From Branchiostoma floridae (Eukaryota; Chordata; Leptocardii; Amphioxiformes; Branchiostomatidae): 64,000 bases of DNA. Under the pieces are notes generated by a model, which saw nothing but the letters and a program-made list of their open reading frames with translations, ran no database searches and was not told the origin of the DNA. Positions within the stretch are counted from its first letter, which is position 1; each line of letters starts with the position of its first letter. The translations under genes were made by a program, and so were the position numbers. Positions 395 through 63,750 of this stretch are shown here, piece by piece. The DNA lies in NCBI RefSeq assembly GCF_000003815.2, contig NC_049992.1:9713538-9777537 (forward strand), in the 5' to 3' direction.

Positions 395-661
395 CATTGA
401 CTCTAACTTCGAAAGAGCAAGAGCTTGCCATTCCACTACCATCAGTGAAGGTGTACTTTACAACAGTAGGTAGGCCAGTCGTGATGGGGAACTTGTGAGG
501 AGGTTTGATGCCAGCCGGCGTCACTGTCATCTTGGGCGGCTTCCCCGAGTTGTCCACAGCGGTAGGAACGGTCCAGTTGACCGTCAGGTAGTTCTGACCC
601 TCTTCTGTACCGTTCACGATGTCCGCTGGACACCCGATGACAAGTCGTGGCGACTGGTTAT
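395..661 (-). CDS. HYR domain exon of gene C
   Basis: This 267-nt phase 1-1 exon encodes an 89-residue HYR (hyalin repeat) domain: [14 protein letters not shown], then [44 protein letters not shown] domains are immunoglobulin-like folds that accompany CCPs in SVEP1 and hyalin. It matches the gene D exon at 53048-53314 almost residue for residue. The donor is a good GTAGGT at 394. A second HYR exon is expected just left of the window. Confidence 0.87.
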
Positions 662-42801: not shown

Positions 42802-45800
42802 ATGGCTACGCACGTAGCTTCGCGACTTGCAGCACTTGCCCTCTTGGCAGTATTTCTCCGAGTGTCCGCCCAAAATGCAGCCCAAAGGGCATCTAGCTTG
42901 CAAAACCAAGTGAAGAAGTATCAAGACAGCCGGGCAGATATCGTGTTTTTGTTGGACAACTCCGGCAGCGTTGGACGATATAACTTTGAGGTATGCTTTT
43001 TCGTTATGTATGTACTGATTTGCCTAATGATTCTACATGAAAAAAATGGAAATCTGTATCACCAATGAAGTTAACTACTTCTTGGGCATAAGCACTCTAC
43101 GACGACGTTGAATAAGTTTCATCCATAACAAATATATGACGTTATCACAGTTTATCCGAACTACATATTAGGGGATTATCAATAACGGCGATTTATTAAT
43201 GCGCGATGAACTCAACGTATTTTCTAAATGTAAAAAAATGTGGCATTTTACTTTTGGCAACTAGTGTTTATCCCTATATCAACTATTAATTGATCTAAAA
43301 TCTATGGACACAATGTTTACACATGTAGATCCAGTGCAGTTACAGTCACACTGGACATTCTAATGAAATAGGCTTTTATAAACAAGGATTGCATCGCGTG
43401 CTATAGGCGTTAATTGACGGCATTATTTCTAACTCTTCACATTCTTGTTACATTTTTCACCCTTTAATTTGTAAATTAAAGTCACACCCTCTATGGCGCA
43501 ATGATGGTCTTGAAGACTGGACTGACAAAGAAATTTGTCATTTGCAAATGCAGCGTAACTATGTTACTATATCACTTGTTATTATAACCGTTTGTTGTTG
43601 GATTTTCCGGAGGTTTCGCAGAATGCGAATCATAAGGTAGATGGTGATTGTTATTTCCATGTGGTGAGAATTAGAATGTCAACTATTAACTTTAGTATGC
43701 CAATATACAAGTGACAGCCTGCCACAACCATTCATTCGTTCCCTGCGAGTCTAGGATTTCTTTAAAAAGCTTATGCTGTTGCTAAAAGAATGTGCTTCTT
43801 AATACTTACAATTAACATCAAACTAGTATATTTTGACTTAACGACATAAATGAAGAATATATTTTATGTTGTACAAGTATTATTGTAATATATTCTCTCT
43901 ATTCATCATACCCCTCTCTATTCCCCACCCCTAATCACCCTCCACACCTCCCTCCCTCCCTCTTTAACCTTCCCCCTAACCTAACCCCTCTCTTCCCACC
44001 TCCGTCCCTACCCACTTACCCACCTACCTAGTATCTACATACAATGTACCTATTATAGTAACCACCTAGTTACAGTACTGTCTATTTATGTAATATCGCC
44101 CCTCTATCACATTAATTCACTAGTAAGAGTACAGGTATTTTTGTGTCCATTAGTGAAACGTGAAATAGCACCCCTTTATCACATTAATTCGCTGGTAAGA
44201 GTTAAAAGATGGTGTCTACTTGAGAAAAATGTGATAGCACCCCTCTATCTATATCTGTATCTATATACTATTAGCCGGTATAACCGCCCTTCGGCCTAAC
44301 ACACTAACTTCGCAGGCACGCGGCGCGGCAGCAGCTGGTTATATATTACACTGAACGATCCGTCACACCTAACTTTTGCACATCTATATGCAAGCGTTCT
44401 TTAAAACTATCCAGAGAAGATGCCCCTACTGTATTTGGTGATAGACAACAAATTCCACTCTACGATAGTTCTGGGAAAATACGAGTTTTTGAACACATCA
44501 ATCCTAGCTTGATAACTCTGGTACTTGAAATCATGGCTGTTTCTTGTTCTTTTTTGAGCTGGTATTATATACTTATCAGTCGGTACGTCCACCAATTTAT
44601 TGGTCATTTTGTACATCATGCAAAGTCTGGACATTTTCCTAATTTCCCTCTATCACATTAATGCACTAATAAAGGCCACAGCAAGTAAATTTTATGGATG
44701 ATATTCTATGCAGAATGCAAAAATAATAAGATACTGTAAATGCATTAAAGTTCGCAGGGATTTAATTTCGCGGTTGCGGGAAAATGGACTTTTCGCGGTG
44801 GATTTAATTTCGCGGTAGCGCCATGCACTGTGATCTCTTACTGTTATGGAAAAATGTTCGCGGTGGTTTTAAATTCGCGGGGAAGCGGCCGCCGCGAAAA
44901 CCGCGAACATTAATCCACGGCGAAAGTTTCTGCATTTACAGTAGCACAAAAAAAACAAGATGGGTAAAGAAAACAAGATGGCTAAATTTTCAAAACAGGC
45001 ACCATAAACGTCGTAACAAGATTTGAAGTGACAAAACGTAGCATCATAACTAACAAGGAATTTATTCCTGTATCAAACTCGTGTTGTAAAAGTGATACTA
45101 GTATCACTTGCCAAGTTGGCAACTACATTCATTGCTTCCATGTTGGTTTCACTTTTACAACTATCCAACAAGTTTCACTTCTGCAACTATAGTCATGGCT
45201 ACCTCCCTAGTGTCACTTCTACAAGTATTGTCATTAGGCTACAATTTGACCATTCCAGAAGAGGAAAAGAAATTTTTTTTCTGAAATCATGCGAAAATGA
45301 ATAAGCACACTGATGTCATCCATAACGTACACTTGCTGTGGCCTAAGAGGTAAAAGATTGTGTCTATTAGTGGAAAATGTGATAGCACCCCTTTTTCAAA
45401 TTAATTCACCGTGTATATAGACAATTATCAAAATATCAGTTAAAAAAAGTTATCACAACTTTGCCAACTATCACGTTTTCTGTCCTACAGTACTATACAG
45501 GGCTACATAAATGTGATAGATAATCAAGTCTTGATTACCTACCAACAGGAGGTAGAGATCGCCTTCGTTGAGAACTTGTTGAGCCAGCTGACCATCAGTC
45601 CCCAGGCCTCGCGAGTCGCCGTCGTGTCGTTTGACGATGTTGCCCGAACGCACATCGACTACATCAAGTACCCCAAGAACAAGTGCTCGTTCCTGAGGGA
45701 GCTGAAGACGGTGAAGTACATTGGAGAGTGGACCAACACTGAGGATGCTTTCCGCTTAGCACAGGAGCTGTTGCGACCACCGTCTGCTTTCAAGAATGAG

Positions 45801-47932
45801 AGGCCTGTTAAGCAAGTAAGGACATCTTTGTTTTTAACTTTCAATTCCTTAAAAATGGGTATGCGTAATTAATTTTTCAAATTTGTGCAATTGTTTGCAA
45901 AAGGCATTTTGGTATAGGATACGATTTCTATAGAGTGAGTGTTTTGATATCAAACTAAAACCGAATGGTACCTAAGCCATTGGAAGAACATGGAAGTAAA
46001 ATGAGTTATTATATCCGTTGGTGCTTTGATATAGAAGACAATAATTGTGTGTTGTGTGTACCAGTTATCCAAACTTAATGCATTGTGTTTGTTACACTGT
46101 ACCTCTCTTCAGAACATTGTTTGGTGGCTTTGTGTGCCCGTGTGTGTTTATGCGTCGTGCGCTTGTGCATCTGTCTGTGTGGACAAGAGTTTACCATGTT
46201 TGTTACCATGGTTGGATTGTGGTAATATTGGGATATTGATAGGTTTTGCAATTCTAAAGATGCCCTTAGTTTATGGGCCTCCTAGTACCTTTCCATGGTA
46301 CTGCGGTGGAATTTCTGTTGTACATCTTCCAATCCGGACATACGATATTCTAATTTTTAGTAGTTAGTAGTCTTCGAAGCTGTAAGAAGTTGCAAGTATT
46401 TGGTCCCCTAGCAACTGGTTCTGTCAAATGCTGGAGATGTATTGTGAAGGCGCTCGTAGTGGAAACACTGTGTCACAGTGTGTGTGTATACCGTGGGGTC
46501 AAACATTATCAAACCTTTTACAGCTGTCTTGTTACAGGGACAACGGTTATTCTGCCATGGTGGTGTATCTACGCTTGTTCAGGGCCTGTATTATGTGCAG
46601 TGCCTTGTTGATTATGATCAGTTACTCCCATATTCCTCCATGTAGAAAAGGTACGGATAACCCTTAGTTCAAAGGATGGTTAGTCCGATAGAAACCAGTG
46701 CCTGTGTCAAGCCATCACCTGTCTAAAGCCAGGTGTGCTATGACGTTGGCTAACCTTTGACATCACACCCTAAGGAACTTGGCGTTTTCAAGAAGAAGCT
46801 GCTAGGGTACCAAACCATACAAGATCGGTTCCAAGGCGTACCCCGATAAATTGCACTGCAGTACCAAGGAAACCCGCTAGGAATCCCACAAGCAACGGAC
46901 TTGTTTAGACTTGTAAAACGTACACACATGAAATAATACAATCCAATGTATCATTGCAAATATACACGCACACGCTCGCCCATACACAGGAAAACACAGC
47001 TACCAAAAACACCTTCACTCAGATGAGATAGCTTTTATACACATTTCACAATTCTTCTCCACGTCAAATTTACCAACAGATAGGTACCATGAAAGCAAAC
47101 GCGTTTTCCTTGCATGTGTCGAGCTAGCTTGGATATCATCAAATGTTTGGTTTAACACCGCGAGTCAAGTTATCATGTTGAAAACTACAGTTTAGCTTTT
47201 CTTCAGAAACAATAGCATTATTTCCATAATCAATGAAATACTTAATATAGAACAGCAAATGTTAAAGAGAAATAATTAAGATAATTTACTGCAGTATAAG
47301 ACGTTTAAAATCTTGTTGTATGTAGGTAGTGATTCTTTTAACGGACGGTCGCCCGACTCGAGGTGGCGATCCTGTTGCACGGGCCAATAACCTCAAGTCT
47401 GTCTACAACGCAGAGATATTCAGCATTGGTATCGGTAAGTTAAGTATATACTTTTGTTAACTTTTGTCATAAACCTACTGATATATCCTTACCCATTAAT
47501 CATGAACTGCAAAGACGTATCAGGGGCAATGCTAGGCTGACCATGTTCATGTTCATTCATATTTACTGTTATAATTTACCATTGAGCGACCAAAACTTTC
47601 AGCTTGATACAAAGAAATAATATATCATATCATTGTCCAGTAAACTCGGTGCTGTACCATCATATTTGATTATAGAATATTGTGACTTGGACTCAATAAG
47701 GATAAGTTTATCAAGATTTATTAAAATCACATGCACAAAACTGTTGGAATTATCCCAATCCAAGAATATTGAACCAGAACTATTTTATGTAAGATGTTTG
47801 TTGGTGATGTCCATTTCCCAGGCGGCAACCTCAACAAGCAGCAGCTGGAGGATTGCGCCACAGACGCCCAACACTTGTACCTTTCTCCAAACTTTGTAGA
47901 CTTCAAGGATCTTGCAAAACGAATAAGGGGAG
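42802..47932 (+). CDS. Signal peptide and vWA domain of gene D (4 exons)
   Basis: 42802-42990 encodes a signal peptide ([19 protein letters not shown]) and [15 protein letters not shown], with MIDAS DxSxS as DNSGS. 45549-45815 encodes [19 protein letters not shown] and [12 protein letters not shown], where the MIDAS Thr is kept but the glycines of gene C's TGGST are changed to GEW. 47326-47434 encodes [18 protein letters not shown]. 47822-47932 ends [10 protein letters not shown]. Intron 1 (2.6 kb) is nearly four times that of gene C because of nested repeats. Confidence 0.9.
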
Positions 47933-50900
47933 GTATGTAATGTTATATTCACTACCTACCTAACTGGTCCCTTGACCTCCAGGTCCTTGGGAGGGGGGCA
48001 AGGTAGACATGAAGATAGAGAGCTGTCTCCAGGCCAAGGCAACGATAGTCCCATAGCCTTTATAAGGCCGTAGCCTTAGGGGAAGTTAATTGTTATTCAC
48101 TGTGTCCAGGGCAAGGTATAGGGAGGCGGGCCCAACCCTACCTTTCCACCGCCTTCTAACTCCTTAAATGAAGGGCACAAGATCGATAACACGACAGGAT
48201 TCGATCCCAGAACCCCTGGGCCAAAGACCCTGTAGTAACAACATAATATCCCACCTTGATCGATTGACCAAAATTATCTTTTCTAAATGACCTCCAACAT
48301 GATACTGTTATATTACCCTACAGACCCCTACGCAAAGCGGTACGTGACTGACGGAGTGACGTCTGGAGACTGCTCTTCACCAAGCTGCGGCTCCAACTCC
48401 GAATGCACGTGCGGGTCGGAGACCGGAGAGTACGAGTGCGCCTGCAAGCCAGGCTACTACGGAACAGGCAGAGGAGCACCGTGCACACGTATGTTTGGAG
48501 GCTAATTCAACTCCATCATTTTAAAGACATAAACGCAATGTATAATGGTATAGCGTTGTGTTGTGTAAATACGACTGGGCAGGCAACATTTGCGAGCAAA
48601 TGCAGCATATTTCCTATGGGCTACTACGGAAATGGCAGAGAGGCACCATGCACACGTATGTTTAGAGTCAACAAGTCAATTTAAGGTTTGAAGTTCGCAT
48701 GCGCAGTGTGATTCATTGTCGTTCATATATCTATTAAAGTTGGCAATTCTTTGGACAAATGAATTTTTGAATGACAACGTATTGCTGGAGGCCTTCAACT
48801 TTGATCTTGCCCACGTGCACAGCGCATCAAACTTCGCATGTGCGCGCACTGCATACAGTGAGCTAACATATTCAATACTTCTAAACTCGTACTTTTCATA
48901 TCCAGTCTGAAATGGTATTTTACAATGGAAAAAGGAAAGCAATGGTGAGTCGCATTGTATCATGTCACACTACATCAACATATCATCATAATACCTTCGT
49001 TTGTAAAGGTTATATAAAAAAAACTGAAATCTTCAACATGGCATGATTGTATATTTGATAATTACCCACAATTGTTGTCATTCCTCCAGCTTGTCCGAAG
49101 GGCCGCTACAAGGAGCTCCTGGCGCCCAGCGTGTCGGGATGCCCGGGGACCTGCCCGGCTAAGAGCAGCACCAGAGGCACGGCGTCCACCAGTCCGAACC
49201 AGTGCGTCTGTAACGAGGGGCACGAAGGAAACCCCTGGGACCCAGGATGCAAACGTAAGGAAGCAACATGGAAGGAATTAAAACTATCTCACTCAAAAAT
49301 ACACTGTACTGCATCGTCTAAACTACCTAGAAATTGATTGCACATATATATAAGACATTGAGGTGGAAGTTCGGGAGTGAATATACAGTCTTTTGCGGGC
49401 TAAATGACGATGCTTAGCAACATGGACCAAGTACAAAAGTTCCAGGATCGTTTATGTTGAGGTGGTTTGTTGTCAATTGTCATGACAGGTGTGCTAGGTA
49501 TATGGGTTGCCTTTCAAATCCAAGTTGATATTGGGACATACGAGACGTCATTGAATACTACGGCAGTGTGCAGCAGAATAGTGCCGAATTTTATTATGGC
49601 GTCATACGTAATGTCCATTACCCCCCTAATTGTCATATTGCCGATTCGGAAACTATCTCGGCATCCGCACCCAGTCTCCCTTGCTCAAATGCAATGAGAT
49701 ATATAACTAACGTTTTTAAACTTTTTATCAACAGCTGTCCGCTGTGACCCAAAACTGGAGTCTCCGGACGGAGGAACCATGCAGCCCGCAAACTGTAACA
49801 ACCAGTATCTGACGAAGTGCCAATTCCAGTAAGAGCCACTAACACGTTATATAGACAAACCTTGCTTTTTCTTGTCATGCCGATCAAAATACAAATTAAC
49901 TGAAATTTTGTGTCTGGCGTTGTGTTTATGTTAAGCAATGAAATGTTTCATAATGCAGCTAACGTAAGTAACTAAAGCAACGGAAGTTCATTTTCCTGTA
50001 AATATATGGTTTTGTTAAATATTCAACCAGTGCTGCCGCTAGTAACCTAGTATAGTGTAAGCGCATCGCTTGGGTATGGCACGTCTGTAGTTGCCGTTGG
50101 ATATTTTGATAATGTTCTCACTCTGATTTAGTAATGGAGGTAACTCTAGTTCTCCTTTATCCGCGGGGTAACCTATATCCGTTGCATTTAAAAACATGGT
50201 GTTTGAGAGTGTCAAACTGCAACAGTTATAAAACATTGCAGTTTGAAACCACCGTCCGTCGACATAACATATCCAGATACACTGTTTCAAAATGCAACGG
50301 ATATAGGTTATCCTACGAATAAAGGAGAACTAGCGTTACCACACTACCAACGATGAATGTACTGATCATACGTGCGTAGCTGGAATGGTAACATTACTCT
50401 AGAGACATTATAGTCGTGATGAATGTGTTAACTTTTTCATTTCATTTCTTTCCTAGATGCAGCTACGGGTACAAAATGTTGAGGGGAACACCGGAAAGGA
50501 CGTGTCACGCTAACAAGACGTGGAGCGGAGCCCCTATCATCTGCCAAAGTAGGTTAAGGTTGCCCTAGCTACTTTACTGAATGAAACACCTTTATTGTAC
50601 ATGCTCCAACAAGCTAAGTACAGGTTGTAGCGATATGGCACAATTTCATCCACAGACTACTATGTGCTGCTATGTACAGGTTCAACTTCTTCTCGCTTCT
50701 TAAGACAGTTGTAAACATAAGGGCAGATGTAATCAATGATACTAGTTGCATAAAGAATATGAATTTTTCCTTGCTATCTATATAACGGAAATTCAGAAAC
50801 ATATCTTGCATGCAATCGAAGAGGACGTTTCTTTCCTTGGTGTATAAAGTACAGCCCATAATAAAGTGATACTCATCCTCTATCTTATTTAGGTTGCAAT

Positions 50901-53900
50901 ATATTTAATGACAATGTCATCTTTGGATGCAGTGATATAGTGTTTTTCTTTGGACAGTCTCTTGTGATATTCGAATGGCGATGTACATGTAGCATTGATT
51001 GCGCTGAACATTGATTGGTGCATTTACCATTCCTTGTCAATACTCAGTTCAGTTCAATTCATCCATCCGGTGATACTATGTTAGGGAATAAAAAATGATA
51101 TCTGATGATGAACAAGCGCGGTGGTTGTTCGTTTGTGTTTTTTAAAAGAGTGGATCTTTTTTTTACCAATGCATGCACTAGCCGTGGAGCCTTGATCCAG
51201 GTAATTTTCTTTACAACGAAGATACGGAAGAGTATCCCTAGTATTGACAAGCAATGGTAAAGGCAGCGCTTACTGTAAATGCAGAAATGTTCGCGGTGGA
51301 TAATTGTTCATGGTTTTCGCGGTGACCACTTCACCGCGAACTTAAAACCACCGCGAACGTTTTTCTATTATTGTATTAGACTGCAGTCTATGGTGTATCC
51401 TACGCGAAAAGTCCTTTTGCCCGCTACCGCGAAATTAAATCCCCGCGAACTTAAACGCATTTACAGTATTTTCTTGTCGCGAACTTGTTTGGATCTGCAA
51501 AGTTTACCAACAATTCCAGCATTTTGTGTCCCCCGGCCTTTCACATATTTTGCCACAACGGAAAGATTTCTAAAATACTGAGTACATTATCCAGATAGCT
51601 CAGGGCAGTTATCCTGGGTTATTTCTTTTAATGCTTAATGTGATTTTTTTTGTCCTCCACAGAAATAGAGTGTCCGGGTCTGGCACTGCCCTCAGACGGA
51701 CAGAGGGCGTGTGTGACGTCAGATGGGCAACAGGCGACTGGGAGTTTTCCTTACGAAACGACTTGTACATTCACCTGTAACCAAGGGTACACCTTACAGG
51801 TACGCACCCGTTTTTTCAGGTGGTCAACATTGCACACAGACTGGCCAGCAATGCAGAGATAATAGTTACAAATGATAAGTATGTCTGTGACATCGGTATT
51901 ACAGTACAAGTGTTAGGAAACAGCACTAGTTGTGTCTATTAGGTTAATACCTCATATTCTTTTATGTAAATAAGGTACTGCGATCGGGTTAGCTTAATGG
52001 TCAACGTCTTTGTTTTGATCAAATATCTCAAAAAAATATCTTCAACTTGTCTACTCACTATGTATTTCCTTACTCCACATGTCAGGGAAGCAGTGTGCGG
52101 AAGTGCTTACAGGAAGGAAAGTGGGACGGCACGGAGGCAAAATGTCTCGGTATGTCACAATTCAGATGCTCAAATATTTCGGTAAATTCAAATTGTACAC
52201 TTCTCACAGTAGGGAAGGTTTTATCCTTTGTACTGAATCTGCTTCCATTGGGCAGAATTATGTCGATAGTCAAGTCTTTCACATGCATATGAATTAATAC
52301 CAAATATCCGAAAGAAGCTTAAGCTTTGGCCATATCAGTAGTTTCTGAAGAGACGATACTAGTAATTGTGTAGTATATTTCTGGGAGAGACAAAAAAAGA
52401 AATAAAGCGTTGCAGTTAAGGATGCTAAGCAATAACTAACAAAATAAAAGCGATAAACAAGTCTGTTTTATTTCATATATGCCTCTCTCTTTTCTGTCCC
52501 AGTTAAAAAGTGTGACCCCTTACCGATGGTGGTAAACGCCACCGTGAGTCCGTCTACCTGTGTGAGCGCGGCCCAGAAGTTCGATACAGCCTGTCAGTTC
52601 ACCTGCCAAGATGGATACAGGATGGACGGAACTCCCAACAGAGTCTGTCTGGAAGACGGCAGCTGGTCAAACCAGCAACCAACATGTATAGGTACGGAGT
52701 CTGGTATATATTATGTGGTTGTAAGAAATGTATAGGGAGTTACAACACTGTAGTGGAACATCATGTTCAAGTTCAAGGCTTGGGTGGCAGGTCGTACAGG
52801 ATGGTATGTACATGACATTGTATGAAGTAAGATGGCTAAGCCTGCTCCAATAGATGTCTCAGTTGAGCAAATGACAGTAATTGTAGCAGCATATGTATTC
52901 CTGTTGGTCTTTTTGATTAAATGAAAATAATTGTTATCAACAGACGTTACCGTTATTTTTAGTGTTAGACTCTTCATTGTACAAAATATTACCTGGTAAT
53001 CAACAATGCATGCATTGGTAATAAAAAAACACTCTTTTCAACCACAGATGAACAACCACCGCGCTTGGTCATCGGGTGTCCAACGGACATCGTGAACGGT
53101 ACAGAAGAGGGTCAGAACTACCTGACGGTCAACTGGACCGTTCCTGCCGCTGTGGACAACTCGGGGAAGCCGCCCAAGATGACCGTGACGCCGGCTGGCA
53201 TCAAACCCCCTCACAAGTTCCCCATCACGACTGGCCTACCTACTGTTGTAAAGTACACCTTCACTGATGACAACGGGATGGAAAACTCCTGTTCTTTTGA
53301 CGTAAAGGTTATAGGTGGGTGTTCTTTGTAGAAACCCATCACTTGTCCATGTGCTATAAAATCTATTAAACAACAAACTGTTGCATGCTCTGCTAGATTT
53401 GCATTCAGAACTCAAGTAAAGTATGGAAATGTTCCCAATCAGCAGTAAAGTACGACCCTTTATGTCATCAACACGACACTTAGAATGTTAGTGTCGAAAC
53501 CCTGTAAATTACCAGTTGAAACGTTTTTTTAGCTATTCCGAACTCTGAAATTTTCACCTAGCTTTTCCTTCAACTTCCAAAAGTGTTATTTCATAACATC
53601 TGTTACTGACATTCATTCTCTCAGGAATCGCGAATAGTTTCACTGCTACTTTTTATCCTGCCATGCCCAGTTATCTGTTGACAAAATATCACCACCAAAG
53701 AGAAGGCTTTAACAGCTGACACCCGCTTCCAACTTTTATAAGCAGTTTCAATCTGTATTTTATTCTTCCCCTGTCTCCGCAGACACTGAGGATCCTAAGC
53801 TCACCCAACATTGCTCCAATATCAAGATGGAAACAAAGGACGAGTCAGTGAACGTAAACTGGACAGAACCGGTCTTCACCGACAACTCCAAACAAGCCGT

Positions 53901-56900
53901 GAGAGTGAACTGTGACAAGGACAGCGGGCAACGCTTCTACTGGGGAACGACTTGGGTCACGTGTACGGCACGTGATATCAATGACAACATGGCCGAGTGT
54001 CGTTTTTACGTGACCGTCAGCCGTAAGACAACATTTTTCTGCAAATAGGTTCACATCATATGATTGAAAAGATTATTGTAGTTCCTGTTTTAATGATAAA
54101 GCACCATGCCTTTTCCCGATGTAAATGCCTAGTTTACGTCTGTTTAAGTATATATTTCCATGTGTATGTGAACTAAGTAATGCTGCTAAGCAAACGATAG
54201 TAAATGTATGAAACTAGGTTTAAGGGTAGAATACGAATAAACAAAAAAAGTCTTCAGATAGATTAACAAAGGTTTGTCGATTAACAGTTAAGATTCAATA
54301 AAGACATGAATTTACATGTTAGATTACACAATGGTTTGTCGATTAAGGGTTAAGACTAAATCAGATAAAGATATAAATTCATACGTTCTTTTATGTATTT
54401 CAGCCACAAGGTGCCCCCACCAAGATCCACCAATCAACGGCGCTCTCTCATGCGACCGTTGGCTTTACGGCCAGTTCTGCAGCGTACAGTGCGAGGAAAG
54501 ATTTGATTTCTACACCGAACCCGCCCGCATGTATGTCTGTGGTTCGTCTGGGCAATGGAGAACAGACCCCCCCGGCAAAGAGACCAAATGGCCAGATTGC
54601 TCACGTATGTATCATCTGTATTCTACTAAATTTAGATTAGGCCATGTCCATTTGATAATATGAATGACAGCAAAGAAAATTTGACCAACATATGAGTGCT
54701 TTTTACTATGAAATTTAGTGGTCAGGAAGGTTAAGCAAATTTGCTAGTACACAGAATTGCTATACTAAACAATATTCTTCATTTTTGTCCTTTCACATCT
54801 TCTTTAACCTTTGAATATTCTATGACATCCGCGTAAGTTTCCTTAATTTATCTACGGCATATATTTGCTCATTTTGCCGCTGCTTTGTACAATTTACAGT
54901 TTTTTGGGCAAACGGCCGAAAATTGATACGCGCTAGGATGTCATGCATATAATCAAGTCAACATGGCCTTATAGAGTAAACGTCCAAGTTAGATGATTTC
55001 GCCATGTGCTGAAAGAGACACACAAGGCTAAACCACATTTTTGTCGTCTTCAGTGAAGCGAATTCCAGGATACTCCAAAGGAATCGAGTTCCAGTACTAC
55101 GTCGGTGACTGTGAGGATGAGGAGACCCAGAAGCAGATCAAACAAAACTTTATCGACCTCTTCAACAGCACGGTTTTCGGGAGGTTTGGTGGGTGTGTGG
55201 GTGAGTCAAAACCATGATTACAAATACTAGTAACCCAAATAATTCATCTGCAGGTAGCAACATTGGTGTGGATGTCATAGGATTATTTGTCATATGTTTA
55301 TTGGGTGCCATTACAAAAATGAATATTGTGAAGAGATTTATCTTGCCCTGACTGATAATGTATATGCCGTGTGTGTGTGTGTGTGTGTGTTTGTGTTTGT
55401 ACCTGCAAGCGTTGCCTGAACGTGCATTTTGGATACAATGTCTTCGTTTTCAACAGGAAACGTCAATTGTAGTGTGGACAACGTGGCTGTGTTCTGTGGG
55501 GAGAAGGACGAAGACATCGTGGTGGACTGGAATCCAGAGGAAGACGGAGGACTGGATGGTCCTTCCAGGAAGAGACGGTCGGTGAAGAGACGCGGTAGAC
55601 TTATCACCATCCGTCTTTTCATCAAGGCACAGTACAAGGTGCGTATCTGAAGCACCTATATATGTGGGTGGAGAAAGCTGCTTGTCAGATCCTCTGTGGT
55701 GTCCCAACAGTCAAATAATTAGACTACATGACATGAGAGCCATAAGTCTGTTATAAGACGATTGCCACATTATGCAACTATATTTCTCTTTTGTTTTACT
55801 TCTAATAGAAGATGCAATTAGGGATGAAATTTGAAGTTGCTGGATAATATACTCTTTACACAACCACTGTTTTATTTAAATGAAGCCGATGGAAATAAAG
55901 CAGTGGCTGTGTGAAATGAGTCCCTTTATTCATTGACGAATCAATCTGATGAGACTATTAACAAGTGTCTTCTCTGGATAGTTTTAAAGAACGCCTGCAT
56001 ATAGATGTGCAAAAGTTAGGTGTTACGGGTCATTCAGTGTAATATAACCAGCTGCTGCCGCATCGAATGCATGCGAAGCTAGTGTGTTACGCCGAAGGGC
56101 GGTTATACCGGCTATACAGAAATAGATACAGAATAAAAGGCACTCAAAAACGTATAAAAGAACTCGCTATTGTAAAGCTTGTTAATTCAATGATAAATTT
56201 AATCTTTTGACTCACTTTTCACAGAACGCAGATCCTGTACAGGGAGAGACAACGGAGGTTAAGAAGAAAATGAGACAACTGAAGGATGACATGAATGAAA
56301 TTGTGAAGGCGGCGAAGGAAGATGTTCGGGTAGGTTGAACGTCCCCTCTTTGTCCTCTTCTTGTTGACAATCAACTCCTGTTGACCATTAACTTTTAATC
56401 AAATATACTATTGAGTGAATCTATTTACAGAAGTTCATTATCCATGTAAATACAGGCTGTAGTCCTGTGTTTGAAAAAATCATTTGCAGAACACTTTGTG
56501 ACGTTTCACGAATGCTCCTCGACGGAGAACATCCTGTTGGGTTCAACGTTTTCCTTTGGCACCTCTAGAGGTGCGTCTGACAGGACAGAGAATACTGTGA
56601 CGTCAGATGTGCCTTAGGCAGAAGATGAATTGTGTGAGATAACGGTGTACAAATTAACATATAAAGGTCGTATAAAACGTCAAAAAGTGCTATGAAAAAT
56701 TTAACGTTTTCAGCAATGGGAGTACAACCTGTACTTAAATCATGAAGTACTTGAAATGACTAAACTGGCAACTGCAATGTTGGGTTCAAAATGTTGGTAT
56801 ACTTGTGACTGATCATTAATACCCCCTTCACATGTAGCGAGAATCGATAGGACGACGAGTCTAAGCTAAAGTTGTCCGTACATCTGTGCAGATGCTTAGG

Positions 56901-59900
56901 GTGGCGCCCATCTCCATTTCGAGTAGCCCTTGGGCCACACATGTGCAAGCCACTACAGCAGGGGGCTGATCCGCTGGTAGTGATGTGTGTTTAACTTCCA
57001 TAACTTCCACTCTTTCTCATTAGTGCCGAGTGCTAAGCAGAGAAAGCAGCATGTACCATTTTTAAAGTAGGTATGACTTGGCCGGGGATCGAACTCACGA
57101 CCTACCGCATGCAAGGCGAACACTCTACCCACTCGGCCATTGCACTTAGTACCTGATGCCGACGCATAAATGGCAGAAACCCTTCCCGTCAGGGTCATGC
57201 CTCTTCGTAACTTAGAGCTCGCAGACTCGTCGTCCGGTCGATTTTCGCCTAATGTGAGGGGGATATAAGGACGTGGTCTCATATGTCGTGCGATCGACGT
57301 ACGATCGCTAACTTCGGGCACTTTGGGGGACAAAATCGTCTCCTGCAAAGACGTCTCCTACAAAGTTCAACTGTCTTGGTACTCAAAACGCTGTTTTGGA
57401 TTCCATGTCGGTAGTTGGTTTTGTCTCGGCCTGCCTGGAAATCCTATGGCATCAAAATCGTTCGATGATTGCACGACCTTTGCGACCGCGCCCTAACACT
57501 CCTTTGTCTCTATTCTACTGACGTGTACAACGTTGTTACCAGACAGGGCAGCTGAGTGACATGTCAGTGATGGCTGGCGGAAGGCGGAGGGGCCAGATGC
57601 TGGCCCTTGCCAGGGTGAGTGGGTCAGACGGAGAGGACATTGGAATAACAGACCTGGACACGGAGGCGGTTCTCAGCTGTGACAGAGGAAAGGTTCTGGA
57701 GGAAAATCTCTGTGGTAAGTTGGACGTGATGAGGAAATAGTAGTCCGAGTTAACTTTTTATGTATATAGATGGCACCATAATAATATCAACATGGGAAGT
57801 CTAACATTATAGCTGTCAAGACATCAACCTGCCCAGTTACTACATGTACAATATTCTTCCATCAGTGACAGTTTTAGATACATACCTCCAAATATCAGAT
57901 ATTTTTACATCTTGTTCACGGAGCGAACTAGTCTCGCGAGAGCACGGGACTAGGTCCGAGACTTGTGTAGATCTTCTGCCCCGAACCCCGCCTCCTTGTG
58001 GAGTAGGGGTAGGTAGGACTTGAGCAGCACCAAGCCCAGCTCCAACCTGCCCATCTTTAATGAGTTGGTCAAGAAGATGGTAATGGACAATAAAGGATCC
58101 TAACGGTTCGGTTTAAGAGAGTTAGTTACTGTTGTTGATTTGTGATTTCTCTACCATCTCATACATATAGTACGTGAGTACTGGCAATCTGTCCAGAACT
58201 CCATTGTCATGATCTTAGAACGTCATATTGTGAGGACGCGTATGGCGATCCATCAACACACATAATGTTGTTCCCTGACTTATCATTAGGAAAACATGAC
58301 AATAATTGACAGGAATGTGTGTGACAAAGGCCACTTACATTACTATATTTTAATGCTTCTCTATCCAGTTGACTGCCCTGTTGGTACATACTACACCGAC
58401 GTCAGTGGCGAGGCCACATGTGACGTCTGTCCGGTGGGCTCCTATCAGGACGAAGAAGGACAGACCGAGTGTATCCAGTGTGAACCTGGATTCTTCACTG
58501 CAGGCAACAACAGCAAGAACGCTACAGACTGCAGGAGTAAGACCAATATCTCATTACATCAAAGAGATAGAATGTTTCAGTTGTTTGTGTTCCTGATTGT
58601 TAAAAGACGTTTCCGGACTCGACTGTTTTATGCAATGTCACCTTGACTTTACAAATACATTCAATTTGATAGTTTTGTTTACCATGAATGAGAGTCTTGT
58701 CAGTGCAGCAATGATATCTATCAAATCAGATATTCAACAATTCACGCTATAAACGTTTTTCTAAATACTGTATAGGAAACCGAAGTAACTTTCAATTATG
58801 TTCATGAATCTTTGGCGCCTTCGTCACGAATACTTTCATCCTGACTGTCTGTCACAACTTCCTACAGGCCAGTGTCAGCCGGGGACGATTTCAGACACGG
58901 GATTAGAGTCCTGCATGTTCTGCCCAAAGGGCACGTATCAGAACCAACAGGGAGCCACTGAGTGTATCCCGTGTGAGGAGGGCACAACAACAGGAGATGT
59001 AGGCACTGTGGACAGGGAGGACTGCAGCAGTAAGAACCACATATTTCGCTAGAACATTCAGTTGATTGGATTTGTCATTTGTAAGATGGCTGTGAGGCTG
59101 AACATGTACGGACTGAAGTCGACCACTGGGTCCTGTACCCATACATTTTCATTAGTATGTTTATACAATACAAAATGTTTGTGTTTATAATAGCGACATT
59201 ATTGTTTGCAGGGTTGTGCGTACCTGGTAGCTACTCCCGGACCGGTACAGACCCGTGTGACCTGTGTCCAGTCGGGACGTTCCAATCCGCACATGGTCAA
59301 ACCGAATGTTTGTCATGTCCACTGGGCACGGGTACAGATGCCGTGGGGTCGGAGGCCTCAAGCGACTGTGTTGGTGAGTACGTTTCTATGTTAGACCTGA
59401 ATTTTATGCGTTATCTGTACAATCATCATCTACTCCAATAGTAGCCCGCTGACAAGTTGTAAACAGTTCTCGTGTCGACCATTGTCTCAATTTGCATACC
59501 AATGTCTGAACGTGTTTTGCTTATGTCTTAGGGATACATTTCATGTTGTTGCAAATGTGCACTAGAAATGGTGAAAGAGCTTATCAAATATTGTAAATGC
59601 AATGTAACACAACTGGATAAGATTAGTTGTTGCGACATTGTCACTACGGTAGTCTCAAAGTCGAGAAAGAAATATTTGTAACACAACTCAGACAACAGAG
59701 ATTATTTGCAGCTACATTGTCAGACGTTTAATCAATCAAGTAAGCTTACCTGTCCTGTGTTCTCTTGATAAGAAACGGTATCCGTTGAACCGAGACGATC
59801 GAAAGACAACCGGTAAAAACATTGCCTTTGTGTCGTCATCTTCTCCAGAGCTTGACTACTGCCAGTCCTCGCCTTGCCAAAATGGCGGATCGTGCACCAT

Positions 59901-62900
59901 GCAGGGGTCAGAGTTCATCTGCTTGTGTCCAGCTGGGTTTGAAGGTGACATGTGTGACGTCAATGTGGATGAGTGCGCGTCGATGCCATGTTACTCCTTA
60001 GCCACCTGTTTGGATAGAGGTATGATCCATAGTAATAAGCTTCCGAATTTCACAGTTTGCTTCATCATAACGTTCTAGATGTGCCCATGTGATAACGTAC
60101 ATGGCTCTAGCTTCAATGGGAACAATGATATCAAAAGGAACCCGTTATTTCACTAAGCGTTATCGTTATCTTTTCGTGTTATTTGACTCTTTTGTACATC
60201 ACGACAGTTGCCGGGTATGAGTGCGTTTGCGCTTCCGGTTGGACTGGTGAACGGTGTGACGTCAACATCGATGAGTGTGCGCCTTCGCCGTGTTTGAATG
60301 GAGCAACTTGCGTTGATGAGGTATTTGTACATACTAGACTCATACCATCAATAAATGGTGATAATAGCACACAGATATTACTGTCTTAAATGTTTTAGAT
60401 GTGGTCAATCTTAGTGCGTTCAATTACGACAATGATGGAACACTTTCGCCTTCGAAAGGGAGAGAAACCATAATATTTAACGAAAAGGGGCGTGATTTTG
60501 GGCTTGATAACAGGGAAATGGTACAGTATTACACACGGCTAATGATACTTAAAGTAAGAGTGTAAGAAACGGATGTATCCCCTTGACAGGACAACGACTT
60601 CCTGTGCCTGTGCGCGGATGGATACAGCGGTGCGTTCTGTGAAGTCAACATTGACGATTGTAGTGACAGCCCGTGTAACGACACCGCTGTGTGTGTGGAT
60701 CTGGTGGACAGTTTCCAGTGCCTCTGTCAGGACGGCTACACTGGCAAGTACTGCGAGGTCGACATCAACGACTGTGAGGCACAACCCTGTCAGAATGGCG
60801 GAAAGTGAGCATATTTCAAAAATCATTTTAGGGTGAGAGGTACATGAAATAAAGCATGGCCCTTCAACATAGGTATGTAAGGGTAGGTTTTCAAGTTGGA
60901 TGCATTCCTGGGGGTTACAATATTAATACCTATCTTTCATTGAAGCACCAGCCGTCACAGTGTTGTGAAGAGTTCCCATTTTGACGTAGTTCCGCCTTTT
61001 GCCAGGTGCACGGATGAGGTTGGAAGGTACACCTGCCAGTGCACACCTGGGTTTGTCGGCTACAACTGTGAACTGAATGTCAACGAGTGCGCGTCAAACC
61101 CCTGTCTGAACCGTGCGTACTGTGAGGACAAGATCAACTCATATCAGTGTCACTGTGCACCGGGGTTCGGAGGGACACACTGTGAAGACGGTAAGCATGT
61201 TTCGATTTGATTTGGAGTGTGGTAATGACATAATTGCTATGTTGACACATTTCGTTTATTGTTTTCCATAGAGCTAAAGATGAGGTAAATGGTCAGTCCA
61301 GTAGGGGGACTTCTTTGGCACTAGATTACGTCTTTTTATTTTGAGTTGACTTTTCTGGAAGAATGAAATACCAGTGATTTAGATAAATTCCGTTCTGGTA
61401 AGATGTCCTTCCAACATGACTTGATGAAAGCCACGTTTGTTCCTCTCTCTCCCTCAGAGCTTTCTGCAGATTTTGACCTGAAATTCCCCAAGGGAATGTT
61501 GTCCGAGTTCACCTCTGGTAAAATAGATCGAGATCTTCCGGCTGTGACAGTTGCCTTCTGGATGAAGATGGCTCAGGACAAGAAGGGCCACAAATACGTC
61601 TTCTCCTACGCAGCAGAAGAAGTGAGTAAATCCTGCATGCTTAATTGCTATCAATATTAGTGCATGAGTCCTTAGATGTGGTTGCTACAACGATACCGGT
61701 ATTTGGCGGCTAACAAATGTGCAAAAAAAAATGCATTCCTATGTAGACCTGTATTTTTCTCACTTCTATCTGGTCTTCAATATCTATCAATGCCTTTAGT
61801 AGAAGGCTGTATAAAAGCAAATTGTGCTTTTTGCCTAATAGTCACAAAAGATATGTGAATAAAATAATAGAAATATCTATCAATTTTACCGAAGGACAAG
61901 TAATGTACTGATTCAAACCACGTAATGCTTTAGCTCTGATTTGGTTTCAATGATGTTTCGCATTAGAATGGCGTGGTCCAAGACAACGCTCTTGTTATTG
62001 AGGTGGACAACTTTAACGAGTTCCTGTTCATGATCAACGGAGAGAAGATCACGACCACCGCTTCAGTAGAGGACGAGGCGTGGCACCATTACGCTTTTAC
62101 GTGGTCTTTGGGTAAGTGTGTATCGGTTTCGTTTTTTGTCGTAACTCCTCTTAGTTCTCAGCATACACATGAGCCAAGTTCCCAACTTTATCCCGATCTT
62201 AGATCATTTTCAAGTCAGAATTAATTGATGCTACTACTGTTAAAAGTGTTAACTATAGCTACTACTTGAAACACCACATGTGTTGACCAAATTCCCACCG
62301 TAGCAGGCTACCATGTTTATTACCATCGCGGCAAACTGGTTAATGTTGTTCGAGACACCAAAGCACAACAGAAAGTGATTAAAGCATATCTCAAGAATCT
62401 CAATAACAAATTTACAAACAGAAGACGTTATCTACATGGTATCTTGTACAAAAGGGAACAAGTCATCAGTGACTTGTAAGACGCACTTCTTCCGCCAAAT
62501 ACTGAGTTACAATCACGCTGCGCGTGCATGTCTCGGTCAGTTTTGCAGTGCCCCGCTGGTTATCAACTGTTCAGAGACGTCTGCTACAAGGTGTTCGACA
62601 GTGAAAAGGACTACTTCGCGTCGAAAGCTGTGTGTGAAGAGGATGGTGGCACTCTGGCAATGCCGCGGGACCAGTCTGTTAACAGTTTCCTGATCAAGCT
62701 AAGGTCTTCACTAAACCGGAACGTTAGGTACTGGATAGGACTAACGGATAGAGAGAAGGAGGGAACGTGGAGTTGGACTGATGGAAGACCACTGGGCCCC
62801 TTCTCCAGTTGGGCAGACGGGGAGCCGAATAATGCCGGGAACGAAGACTGCGTTGTTTACGCCGCTCACCCATCAGTACGGGACAGGTGGAACGACGTGC

Positions 62901-63750
62901 CATGCTCTCTCCGCTACAGATTCATCTGCCAAAAACCTGCTACGGGTGAGATGACCACTTCATAAACGTCATGTGTCCAGTATTTTGTACTACCTTGGAA
63001 TATCCATAAAAGAAAGCAGGTGTCAAATAATGTAAGCCAATAAGCTATTGATGTGGCTATAAACTAAGCTAATCAGAGCAGCATTTTGATAAACAAAGTT
63101 TACCCCCATCGTTCTGTTCAACCTGGTTCACAAGCAAAACCCACAGCTAGCTATAGATGTATATGTTTTCCTTCGAATAGTATTTTCAAAAAAATTTTGA
63201 AGATATGTTTTTAGATTCATTCCTACTCTAACAGTCACCTTGTCAACAAAGTTTGCTGAGCACGATAACAATACCCATAGCTGCACGGACCAGCTTGACG
63301 ACGACAGTGAAATAAGGGCTACAGAATGACCAATGTCTCCCCCAGTTCTACAGTGTCCTGCCGGATATCAACCCTTTAGAGGTGCATGCTATAAGGCTTA
63401 CGACACTGAGAAGGACTACGCCGAGTCAGAGGCAGTCTGTACGTCAGCCGGCGGGACCTTGGCCATGCCGCAGGACAGTTCACTCAACACCTTCCTCATT
63501 ACACTGAAAAATGCACTGAATCCTGGAGTCCGATATTGGATCGGCCTTAGCGATAAAGCAAAGGAAGGAGCTTGGCGATGGAGTAACAACAGGCCCATAG
63601 GAGACTTCTCAAGTTGGGCTGAGGGGGAACCGAACAACGCAGGGAACGAAGATTGTGCGGTTTACGCTGCTCACCCCTCAATAAAGGACAAGTGGAACGA
63701 CGTCCCGTGTACGCTTCGCTACCGGTTTATCTGCCAAGTACCGGCAACTG
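42802..63750 (+). CDS. Gene D: SVEP1/polydom-like protein with C-type lectin domains (29 exons, runs off the right edge)
   Basis: Exons: 42802-42990, 45549-45815, 47326-47434, 47822-47932, 48324-48488, 49090-49254, 49735-49828, 50457-50548, 51663-51799, 52086-52149, 52503-52691, 53048-53314, 53783-54022, 54404-54604, 55054-55200, 55457-55638, 56225-56329, 57543-57714, 58369-58536, 58868-59029, 59212-59373, 59849-60019, 60208-60320, 60590-60804, 61006-61190, 61458-61621, 61967-62111, 62541-62945, 63346-63750. All phases chain and sum to 1730 codons plus one base. Order: signal peptide, vWA, EGF, Cys-rich EGF-like, CCP x3, HYR x2, CCP, linker, GCC2/GCC3 x3, EGF array, half pentraxin, CTLD x2. 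The N-terminal two-thirds follows SVEP1, and the CTLD tail does not. Role inferred: secreted matrix or immune-type lectin. Confidence 0.88.
44250..44645 (-). mobile_element. 5'-truncated LINE 3' end with 9-bp target-site duplication
   Basis: The minus reading gives [20 protein letters not shown], then [16 protein letters not shown] and [11 protein letters not shown], the conserved C-terminus of CR1/L2-like LINE reverse transcriptases. The tail ends in a GATATAGATA-type microsatellite. Related fragments lie at 16001-16336 (minus) and about 55975-56135 (plus). Confidence 0.82.
44673..45344. mobile_element. ~670-bp DNA transposon-like element with 14-bp TIRs
   Basis: The ends AGGCCACAGCAAGT and ACTTGCTGTGGCCT are perfect inverted repeats. 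The flanks rejoin the surrounding tandem repeat (CACTAATAA / AAGAGGTAAAAG), showing an insertion. The interior lacks a transposase. Superfamily not assigned. Confidence 0.65.
44732..44943. mobile_element. MITE family 1, copy 1 (TACTGTAAATGCA ends)
   Basis: It begins TACTGTAAATGCA and ends TGCATTTACAGTA. The interior is made of repeated, mutually inverted words such as TTTAATTTCGCGGT, CGCGGTGG and CCGCGAACATTAA. It is non-coding. Copy 2 is at 51271-51468. Confidence 0.88.
48324..49254 (+). CDS. EGF-like and Cys-rich EGF-like exons of gene D
   Basis: 48324-48488 (165 nt) encodes [19 protein letters not shown], then [17 protein letters not shown] and [12 protein letters not shown]. 49090-49254 (165 nt) encodes [19 protein letters not shown] and [17 protein letters not shown]. 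Both are phase 1-1 and are the direct counterparts of gene C exons. Confidence 0.87.
48616..48654 (+). pseudogene. Duplicated 3' fragment of the EGF exon
   Basis: The 3' end of exon 48324-48488, about 38 coding bases plus its GTATGTTT donor, is repeated 166 bases downstream. It keeps the reading [12 protein letters not shown] before the donor. No in-phase acceptor precedes it, so it looks like a partial tandem duplicate rather than an alternative exon. Confidence 0.75.
49735..52691 (+). CDS. Three CCP/sushi domains of gene D
   Basis: CCP1 is 49735-49828 plus 50457-50548 ([20 protein letters not shown] to [12 protein letters not shown]). CCP2 is 51663-51799 plus 52086-52149 ([17 protein letters not shown] to [12 protein letters not shown]). 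CCP3 is 52503-52691 ([19 protein letters not shown] to [11 protein letters not shown]). Splits are at the same codons as in gene C. Introns here hold two MITEs and a LINE tail. Confidence 0.88.
50139..50340. mobile_element. MITE family 2, copy 2
   Basis: The ends GGTAACTCTAGTTCTCCTTT and, reversed, GGTAACGCTAGTTCTCCTTT pair over about 45 bp, including CCTATATCCGTTGCATTT. It is the same family as 26391-26587. It lies in the intron that splits CCP1 of gene D. Confidence 0.85.
50583..50900 (-). mobile_element. LINE 3' end fragment in a gene D intron
   Basis: The minus reading includes [20 protein letters not shown], then [10 protein letters not shown] and [11 protein letters not shown], typical of the zinc-binding C-terminus of LINE reverse transcriptases, followed by a stop and a short UTR with an AATAAAGG-type end. 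It is related to 8038-8399. Confidence 0.78.
51271..51468. mobile_element. MITE family 1, copy 2
   Basis: Begins TACTGTAAATGCA and ends TGCATTTACAGTA-like (CGCATTTACAGTA), with interior CGCGGTGG, CCGCGAAC and CGCGAAATTAAAT words as in copy 1. It lies in the intron before CCP2 of gene D. Confidence 0.87.
53048..54022 (+). CDS. Two HYR domains of gene D
   Basis: 53048-53314 (267 nt) encodes [31 protein letters not shown] and [19 protein letters not shown]. 53783-54022 (240 nt) encodes [30 protein letters not shown] and [19 protein letters not shown]. Both are phase 1-1. The first is nearly identical to gene C exon 661-395. Confidence 0.87.
54404..54604 (+). CDS. CCP/sushi domain after the HYR pair in gene D
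   Basis: This 201-nt phase 1-1 exon encodes [37 protein letters not shown] and [19 protein letters not shown]. It is the counterpart of gene A exon 31820-31632. Confidence 0.85.
55054..57714 (+). CDS. ~200-residue linker region of gene D (4 exons) with basic cleavage-like site
   Basis: 55054-55200 encodes [20 protein letters not shown] and [18 protein letters not shown]. 55457-55638 encodes [25 protein letters not shown] and the basic run [11 protein letters not shown]. 56225-56329 encodes a charged helix ([20 protein letters not shown]). 57543-57714 encodes a basic GGRRRG segment and ends [14 protein letters not shown]. No standard domain is obvious, but this place between CCP and GCC2/GCC3 is occupied by a conserved unnamed region in SVEP1. 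RKRR and VKRR fit the furin consensus. Confidence 0.8.
55368..55400. repeat. (GT)n microsatellite
   Basis: About eleven GT units followed by TTGTGTTTGT, in the intron before exon 55457. Confidence 0.9.
55975..56135 (+). mobile_element. LINE 3' tail fragment
   Basis: Plus-strand GGATAGTTTTAAAGAACGCC, TGCAAAAGTTAGGTGTTACG and GAAGGGCGGTTATACCGGCT match the reversed tails at 16001 and 44250. It ends in an ATAGATACAGAA microsatellite. It lies in the intron between linker exons 55638 and 56225. Confidence 0.75.
56880..57150 (-). mobile_element. tRNA-Ala-derived SINE, minus orientation
   Basis: The minus strand from 57150 reads GTGCAATGGCCGAGTGGGTA, GTTCGCCTTGCATGCGGTAG and GAGTTCGATCCCCGGCC: A box, anticodon arm with TGC, and B box. 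It is followed by a tail shared with 10068-10310. It is the best preserved head of the three copies. It lies in the intron before exon 57543. Confidence 0.8.
57909..58010 (+). mobile_element. Short dispersed GC-rich element, second copy
   Basis: Shares CTAGTCTCGCGAGAG, GTAGATC-TCTGCCCC and CCCCGCCTC words with the reverse strand of 19690-19790 over about 100 bases. Non-coding. Confidence 0.65.
58369..59373 (+). CDS. Three GCC2/GCC3 (ephrin-receptor-like) modules of gene D
   Basis: 58369-58536 encodes [37 protein letters not shown]. 58868-59029 encodes [35 protein letters not shown]. 59212-59373 encodes [35 protein letters not shown]. All are phase 1-1 exons of 162-168 nt with the CPxGxYxxxxGxxxCxxC pattern. 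Gene A has two. Confidence 0.88.
59849..61190 (+). CDS. EGF/cbEGF array of gene D (4 exons, about six domains)
   Basis: 59849-60019 holds EGF1 ([13 protein letters not shown]) and the start of a cbEGF ([10 protein letters not shown]). 60208-60320 completes it ([14 protein letters not shown]) and begins [10 protein letters not shown]. 60590-60804 completes that and adds [16 protein letters not shown] and [15 protein letters not shown]. 61006-61190 completes the last and adds [16 protein letters not shown] to [14 protein letters not shown]. Introns fall inside domains with mixed phases (1-1, 1-0, 0-2, 2-1), unlike the one-domain-per-exon EGFs of gene A. Confidence 0.87.
61458..62111 (+). CDS. 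N-terminal half of a pentraxin-like (LamG-fold) domain in gene D
   Basis: 61458-61621 encodes [38 protein letters not shown] and YVFSYAAEE. 61967-62111 encodes [34 protein letters not shown] and [13 protein letters not shown]. This matches the SVEP1 pentraxin through the WHH...TW strand. The second half (about 100 residues with calcium ligands and the closing cysteines) is not found. The next in-phase exon is a C-type lectin. Confidence 0.8.
62541..62945 (+). CDS. C-type lectin domain 1 of gene D
   Basis: This single 405-nt phase 1-1 exon encodes a full [45 protein letters not shown], then [21 protein letters not shown] and [11 protein letters not shown] and WND are the calcium and sugar ligands, and EPN predicts mannose-type specificity. 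It follows the pentraxin half exon in phase. Confidence 0.92.
63346..63750 (+). CDS. C-type lectin domain 2 of gene D
   Basis: A tandem copy of the preceding exon with the same 405-nt length and phases: [66 protein letters not shown] and WND are intact. Ends at a GTGAG donor, so more exons follow beyond the window. Spacing between the two copies is 805 bases. Confidence 0.92.

Follow-up and report, generated by a model that had tools for sequence, protein, structure and literature searches.

A segment of the Branchiostoma floridae genome raises the question of whether a gene resembling SVEP1 abandons its pentraxin domain halfway in favor of tandem C-type lectin domains (CTLDs), as proposed in a preliminary description of this DNA, or carries the lectin domains within a pentraxin that is resumed farther downstream. 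Exon shuffling usually puts domains side by side, whereas here a symmetrical module appears to have entered an intron of a folded domain, at an insertion-tolerant loop. A close paralogue on the same contig has an empty site, and the two genes lend themselves to a clean comparison of how nested domains originate. The segment, referred to below as the window, is a stretch of 64,000 nucleotides (C14:9713538-9777537) of the 513,431,437-base assembly of 431 contigs that also served as the base for genome searches. Positions are counted from its first base, and the numbering is continued past its end for features termed window-extended.

The gene in question, gene D, was spliced from the window as a 29-exon model on the plus strand (42802-63750) that is open over 1736 amino acids with no stop. 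Exons 1-25 (42802..61190, split, plus strand) supply, in stop-free form and with Pfam matches above cut-off, the N terminus, a vWA domain, three Sushi, two HYR, the ephrin-receptor-like (GCC2) repeats, and six EGF domains; the Pfam order for the model as a whole is VWA, Sushi x3, HYR x2, Ephrin_rec_like x4, EGF x6, Pentaxin, and Lectin_C x2. The part of the SVEP1/polydom domain order that runs from vWA through CCP, HYR, GCC2/ephrin-like, and EGF to pentraxin is thus reproduced in gene D, with a pentraxin that is complete but interrupted. Two exons on the plus strand contribute its beginning: LGa (61458..61621), entered in phase 1 and left in phase 0, with a gene A counterpart at C14:9706972, and LGb (61967..62111), which ends in phase 1 and completes the first half of the domain. 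Together they match positions 4-93 of the 194 in the Pentaxin profile, at 31.6 bits within the whole protein and 37.1 bits as two exons alone. The rebuilt model, its exact exons, and the Pfam matches bear out the earlier account of an SVEP1-type gene that runs in frame from half a pentraxin into one CTLD and then another, and the domain search of the translated model that had been proposed as a check returned the partial Pentaxin match followed by the two Lectin_C matches.

The CTLD exons, CT1 (62541..62945) and CT2 (63346..63750), lie on the plus strand, are each 405 nt long with 1-1 phase, and contain RWNDVPC and KWNDVPC, respectively; an intron of 429 nt (62112..62540, plus strand) precedes CT1, and pentraxin exons follow CT2 outside the window. 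Lectin_C (PF00059) scores 144.2 bits over two stretches of the gene D protein, against a cut-off of 22.6. The EPN motif and WNDVPC, read from the sequence, are present in both exons and presumably mark mannose-type binding at a Ca/sugar site, and the cysteines, read likewise, fit the pattern of a long-form CTLD. Exon boundaries and the EPN/WND motifs agree with the earlier statement that the next in-phase exons are both EPN-type CTLDs joined at phase-1 junctions. The two are 71% identical in protein sequence, with a Ka of 0.19 and saturated synonymous sites. Phase compatibility alone is weak evidence that such exons belong to the gene, since phase 1 is shared by 19 of the gene D model's 28 introns, both that flank CT1 included. 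The coding evidence is stronger because CT1 and CT2 are free of stops, both retain EPN and WND, and their replacement rates are low in comparison with relatives.

The missing half of the pentraxin is found 388 bases past CT2 in the same assembly, at window-extended 64139-64313 and 64703-64854, with GT-AG splice sites bounding it. The first of these exons, which offers a phase-1 acceptor after CT2, reads GSAEEQWTFYVDGKRVAGG...GQDQD...GELSR, running to GQDQDEILGGFDSKESFKGELSR; the second follows GELSR and begins LNVWDHALTEAQ.../LNVWDHALTEAQISVMSRHC... In translation, the path from LGb through CT1 and CT2 to the second half is open with no stop, as is the direct junction from LGb to the second half, and, judging by phase, inclusion of a single CTLD also keeps the frame. 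When the region is spliced with the CTLDs, Pfam reports Pentaxin as two pieces around two Lectin_C domains (87.0 bits); when they are left out, it reports one Pentaxin stretch of 99.9 bits at positions 4-181 of 194, a near full-length PF00354. Provided that splicing retains the CTLD exons, the contiguity of PF00354 is broken in gene D by two CTLDs between LGb and the 64139 exon. The interval 40898-81216 (window-extended) is without any N, and a run of Ns follows at 81217-81645, so that no assembly gap lies across the CTLD insertion. The second half looks constrained, as its exons are 89% and 92% identical to those of the paralogous gene A with Ka/Ks of 0.17 and 0.18, and the pentraxin exons of both halves have Ka/Ks of 0.14-0.18 by exon.

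Because the second half follows CT2 and is entered in phase 1, the CTLDs are placed inside the pentraxin domain, and the impression of a swap is explained by a window that ends before the second half. With good probability, gene D encodes a multidomain, SVEP1-like and probably secreted protein whose pentraxin domain has two EPN-type CTLDs inserted in tandem; on its predicted exon structure, the arrangement is a domain within a domain, not a swap. The preliminary description had allowed that LGb might instead be spliced to a second half elsewhere. Such a half is indeed present downstream, but the CTLD exons stay in frame between the two halves.

The intron before CT1 contains an open frame (62303-62476, plus strand) that resembles, in the phase required, the start of a second pentraxin half and is possibly a relic of exon duplication. 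As a candidate third pentraxin exon, it was rejected as probably due to chance: it hits a stop, and the true second half is at 64139. Adding it changes the Pentaxin score from 37.1 to 38.0 bits (+0.9) and that of Laminin_G_3 from 38.4 to 41.3 bits (+2.9), and the match with solved pentraxins gains nothing from it, ending where LGb ends.

A route to the nested arrangement can be proposed in which a 1-1 phase CTLD exon module entered a pre-existing phase-1 intron through exon shuffling. The insertion point would correspond to the turn between the strand ending LGb and the strand QWTFYVDGK, neighbouring strands of the pentraxin sandwich; its location in a hairpin is assumed from pentraxin structures. 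The match with neuronal pentraxins sets the end of LGb at their TWTT, and the query beyond that point is intron sequence. In known structures, the ends of a CTLD lie close together, and therefore a pentraxin folding from its two halves could close around the CTLDs. With the CTLD exons spliced into gene D transcripts, constitutively or as cassettes, the gene would give a matrix or plasma protein displaying additional Ca-dependent, mannose-type sugar binding, with a probable role in mucosal or humoral defence.

Paralogues provide the corresponding empty site. Gene A, an inverted paralogue of gene D, starts at 7549 and runs leftward on the minus strand (399..7549 within the window). Its pentraxin (~C14:9706972-9705420, outside the window and at a distance of ~69 kb from the gene D pentraxin) is uninterrupted, with LGb passing to the second half across a 280-nt intron (C14:9706320-9706041), and it scores 99.8 bits with Pentaxin and is 90% identical to the gene D pentraxin. 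Comparison of CT1 with the gene A region by tblastn gave no match at E up to 1, and the gene A intron contains no CTLD remnant. A third SVEP1-type pentraxin at C12:17387111, identical to that of gene D at 93 of 205 aligned positions and accompanied on both sides by EGF-like sequence (read by eye), contains a 404-nt intron, likewise phase 1, at the gene D insertion position and no CTLD within 3.2 kb. Thus, both of these pentraxins carry the intron without a CTLD. Across the genome, all 75 pentraxin candidates were scored, yielding 44 matches, and 30 loci with 1.5 kb on either side, plus one further region, were examined. At the insertion position, 26 of the 30 loci are intronless, and an exon starts at or near it in gene D, gene A, the C12 pentraxin, and a locus at C14:3507555 (L046), where the start seems to be close but slightly displaced. 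No second nested case was found among the 31 regions, four of which contain CTLDs: gene D, L058, where a single exon carries the pentraxin and then the CTLD, and L044 and L047, where it lies ~1 kb off on the 3' side. With this phase-1 intron present but free of CTLDs in both paralogues, the simplest history suggested by these comparisons is that the SVEP1-type phase-1 intron is older and that the CTLD exons were gained in gene D.

Potential sources for such a module are plentiful in this genome, which has a very large CTLD repertoire: a genome search gave 1349 first-look candidates, and all of the 150 that were scored passed. Among those 150 of 1349, the nearest relative of CT1 outside gene D is at C2:11012159 (73% amino acid identity), followed by C12:21717113 (61%). 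In DNA, the C2 relative is 78% identical to CT1 across the exon together with 13 and 22 flanking bases, and the two have common exon ends and similar surroundings of acceptor and donor. The shared exon ends and splice flanks therefore fit 1-1 phase exon shuffling, for which the locus also provides symmetrical 1-1 exons situated in a phase-1 intron with relatives elsewhere in the genome. Between CT1 and the C2 copy, Ka is 0.15 and Ks 1.02; on the Ka/Ks of this pair and of CT1/CT2, the CTLD module is an old, constrained, 1-1 phase exon. Shuffling of this type is reported as extreme in lancelets in PMC4284660, according to which two lancelet species differ by thousands of exon rearrangements and the 1-1 phase share is 40% among shuffled exons and 51% among domain exons, versus about 28%. 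The C2 gene at 11.01 Mb contains a WSC-like domain in addition to the CTLD, and gene D has one as well (see below). A common donor for both was considered and is not supported: with the gene D domain ranking first, the WSC-like domain of the C2 gene is only the 43rd of the 150 scored among 210 candidates.

If the CTLDs are nested, CT1 and CT2 may further be alternative cassette exons by which splicing switches the recognition head, a sub-case that we consider a realistic possibility while not favoring it. The frame is kept with none or with two CTLDs (translated both ways), the phases permit one, and without CTLDs the gene D pentraxin is close in score to its gene A counterpart, 99.9 versus 99.8 bits. 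The CT1 acceptor is weak, which also counts against the nested reading, being pyrimidine-poor (10/17) and among the weakest 8 of the 30 acceptors compared, a set that includes 47800, which is not a true acceptor position. However, exons whose skipping would break the frame, for example 64703 (152 nt), can have weak acceptors too. Because the CTLD exons are skippable in phase, a splice switch between an intact and a lectin-bearing pentraxin is possible. The fuller proposal of a splice-switchable lectin pair, in which skipping would give an intact pentraxin and inclusion one whose surface hairpin bears a pair of mannose-type lectins, is more tentative and should be viewed with some doubt. If true, one gene would give rise to two recognition molecules, with sister gene A as an uninterrupted natural control, and the A/D pair also bears on whether splicing lets a host domain survive insertion.

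Another history, which we judge rather unlikely, would have the CTLDs enter before the A/D duplication and later be deleted from gene A. CT1 and CT2 are saturated with respect to each other at synonymous sites, and several A/D exons reach a Ks near 1. Such a sequence of events is possible because CT1 and CT2 are mutually old and the Ks of A/D exons ranges from 0.03 to 1.46, but the gene A intron is without any CTLD remnant, and one gain plus one loss would be needed because the C12 pentraxin also lacks CTLDs (within 3.2 kb). Attempts to order these events are complicated by the uneven divergence of the two genes. In a test of 35 of the 36 listed exons (1791 codons, with 47800 left out), the heterogeneity statistic for Ks was 116.9, versus a maximum of 55.3 in 2000 permutation shuffles, and, around the pentraxin, only exons align between A and D, so that insertion breakpoints could not be located from their introns. 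The spread in Ks together with the non-aligning introns would be explained by exon-limited gene conversion between the inverted copies, which the sequences suggest and by which the date of the duplication is spoiled. As the A/D exons differ so strongly in Ks, the insertion cannot be dated in this way either.

It is improbable that CT1 and CT2 instead constitute a small separate lectin gene nested on the same strand in a gene D intron, with gene D making a normal pentraxin. Same-strand nesting is possible, CTLDs are abundant in the genome (150 scored of 1349 first-look candidates), and the three introns contain six ATG frames of at least 15 codons, one of which, at 62313, has a hydrophobic start. 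That frame nonetheless stops after 21 codons, and neither the 400 nt that separate CT1 from CT2 nor the 388 nt after CT2 contain AATAAA or ATTAAA, the sole such signal in the three introns being upstream of CT1 at 62378. Moreover, CT1 and CT2 both have phase-1 splice sites at both ends and, for that reason, would by themselves be without start and stop. The swap of the preliminary description, in which the gene D pentraxin would stop after its first half, continue as a CTLD protein, and leave the downstream half unused, accords with the exon order within the window and with the weak first donor of that half (AG|gtttgt), but is highly improbable given an apparently constrained second half 388 nt past CT2 with GT-AG sites and matching phase, and half a pentraxin sandwich would not be expected to fold.

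Returning to the nested reading, the divergence of the two sister genes appears to extend beyond the pentraxin. In gene D, the pentraxin is followed by EGF/EGF_CA, a WSC-like domain (21.1 bits, under the Pfam cut-off of 27.8), a SUEL lectin domain (78.9 bits), and three Sushi domains (69.9-71.2 kb). No further Sushi was seen to 92.4 kb by eye among open reading frames preselected for length, number of cysteines, and a small set of motifs, an interval that includes the Ns at 81217-81645. The long CCP array said earlier to be missing after the pentraxin is thus replaced by only three Sushi domains, and because this array, a hallmark of vertebrate SVEP1, was not found, gene D is described here as SVEP1-like rather than as a strict SVEP1. 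The gene A region gives no WSC-like or SUEL match better than E 0.23. Judging from these gene models, the sisters A and D seem to have drifted apart via domain gain or loss at several places, and one SVEP1-like gene has gathered several lectin modules (two CTLDs and SUEL) that are not found in its sister.

Several other observations concern these flanks. In the interval corresponding to the WSC-like and SUEL exons of gene D, gene A has a reverse-transcriptase-like frame of 492 codons, recognized by eye (C14:9702783-9701308, minus strand). Downstream of the gene A EGF exons is an ApeC domain (81.8 bits; C14:9697883-9697572, minus strand), for which the gene D side, compared as far as 93 kb, gave no match. 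The gene D domain that resembles WSC (C14:9781518-9781799, window-extended 67981-68262) spans ~94 residues and has at least 150 matches in the genome, some partial, among the 150 scored of 210 candidates; these are often clustered on C4 and C16, suggestive of a large, poorly modelled family.

The window holds further features of interest. On its minus strand, 40502-18203 encodes a second SVEP1-like core of EGF, EGF_CA, Sushi, two HYR, Sushi, and two GCC2 domains, identified by visual reading and by a tblastn search using gene D. This core appears to continue through a pair of Ig domains to a trypsin domain (Trypsin 132.3 bits, from pieces joined by hand), making it a candidate matrix-protease hybrid, and further EGF/Sushi exons at 18114-15294 have the appearance of another tandem copy coming next. 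A 42-bp minisatellite of 21.7 copies at 16984-17896 is open in at least two minus-strand frames. Within the LGa-LGb intron, a short dispersed repeat (61795-61867) has at least 35 other matches on 16 contigs, 80-92% identical, among the 40 of 113 candidates that were scored. Scans of the window with Rfam (at the gathering threshold) and for tRNAs found nothing.

Comparison with known systems shows which elements of this locus have precedents. PMC10281526 gives the domains of vertebrate polydom/SVEP1 as vWA, ephrin-like, HYR, EGF, pentraxin, and CCPs. Gene D shares all of these types; unlike polydom/SVEP1, it has CTLDs inside the pentraxin and then EGF/EGF_CA, WSC-like, SUEL, and three Sushi domains in place of the long CCP array. 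The CTLDs themselves resemble those of the mannose receptor family, DC-SIGN, and collectin-11 in profile and sequence matches and in their EPN and WND motifs, but the architecture of the host protein is unrelated. Within this genome, pentraxin and CTLD have also been brought together at L058 (C2:10521900-10523400), where one exon frame of 404 codons contains the end of a pentraxin and then a CTLD, an independent combination; the exon at C2:10522467-10523198 is like gene D in having both domains in one frame and unlike it in that the CTLD lies past the pentraxin end and is not nested. Published CTLDs inside a pentraxin or in SVEP1 were not found in the literature searched by title and start of abstract, a coverage outside which most subscription journals fall. 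The closest parallels are the exon-shuffled immune genes of lancelets, in which, as far as the available parts of PMC4284660, PMC2575513, and PMC12373286 describe them, 1-1 domain exons are added to existing genes and tandem CTLDs occur as modules for carbohydrate recognition, as in gene D. Among these, ApeC proteins with two consecutive CTLDs are described in PMC12373286. These genes join domains in a row, whereas the module in gene D interrupts another domain. This kind of exon shuffling in lancelets is thus already known, and the new aspect is the nesting, together with a paralogue that retains the empty site.
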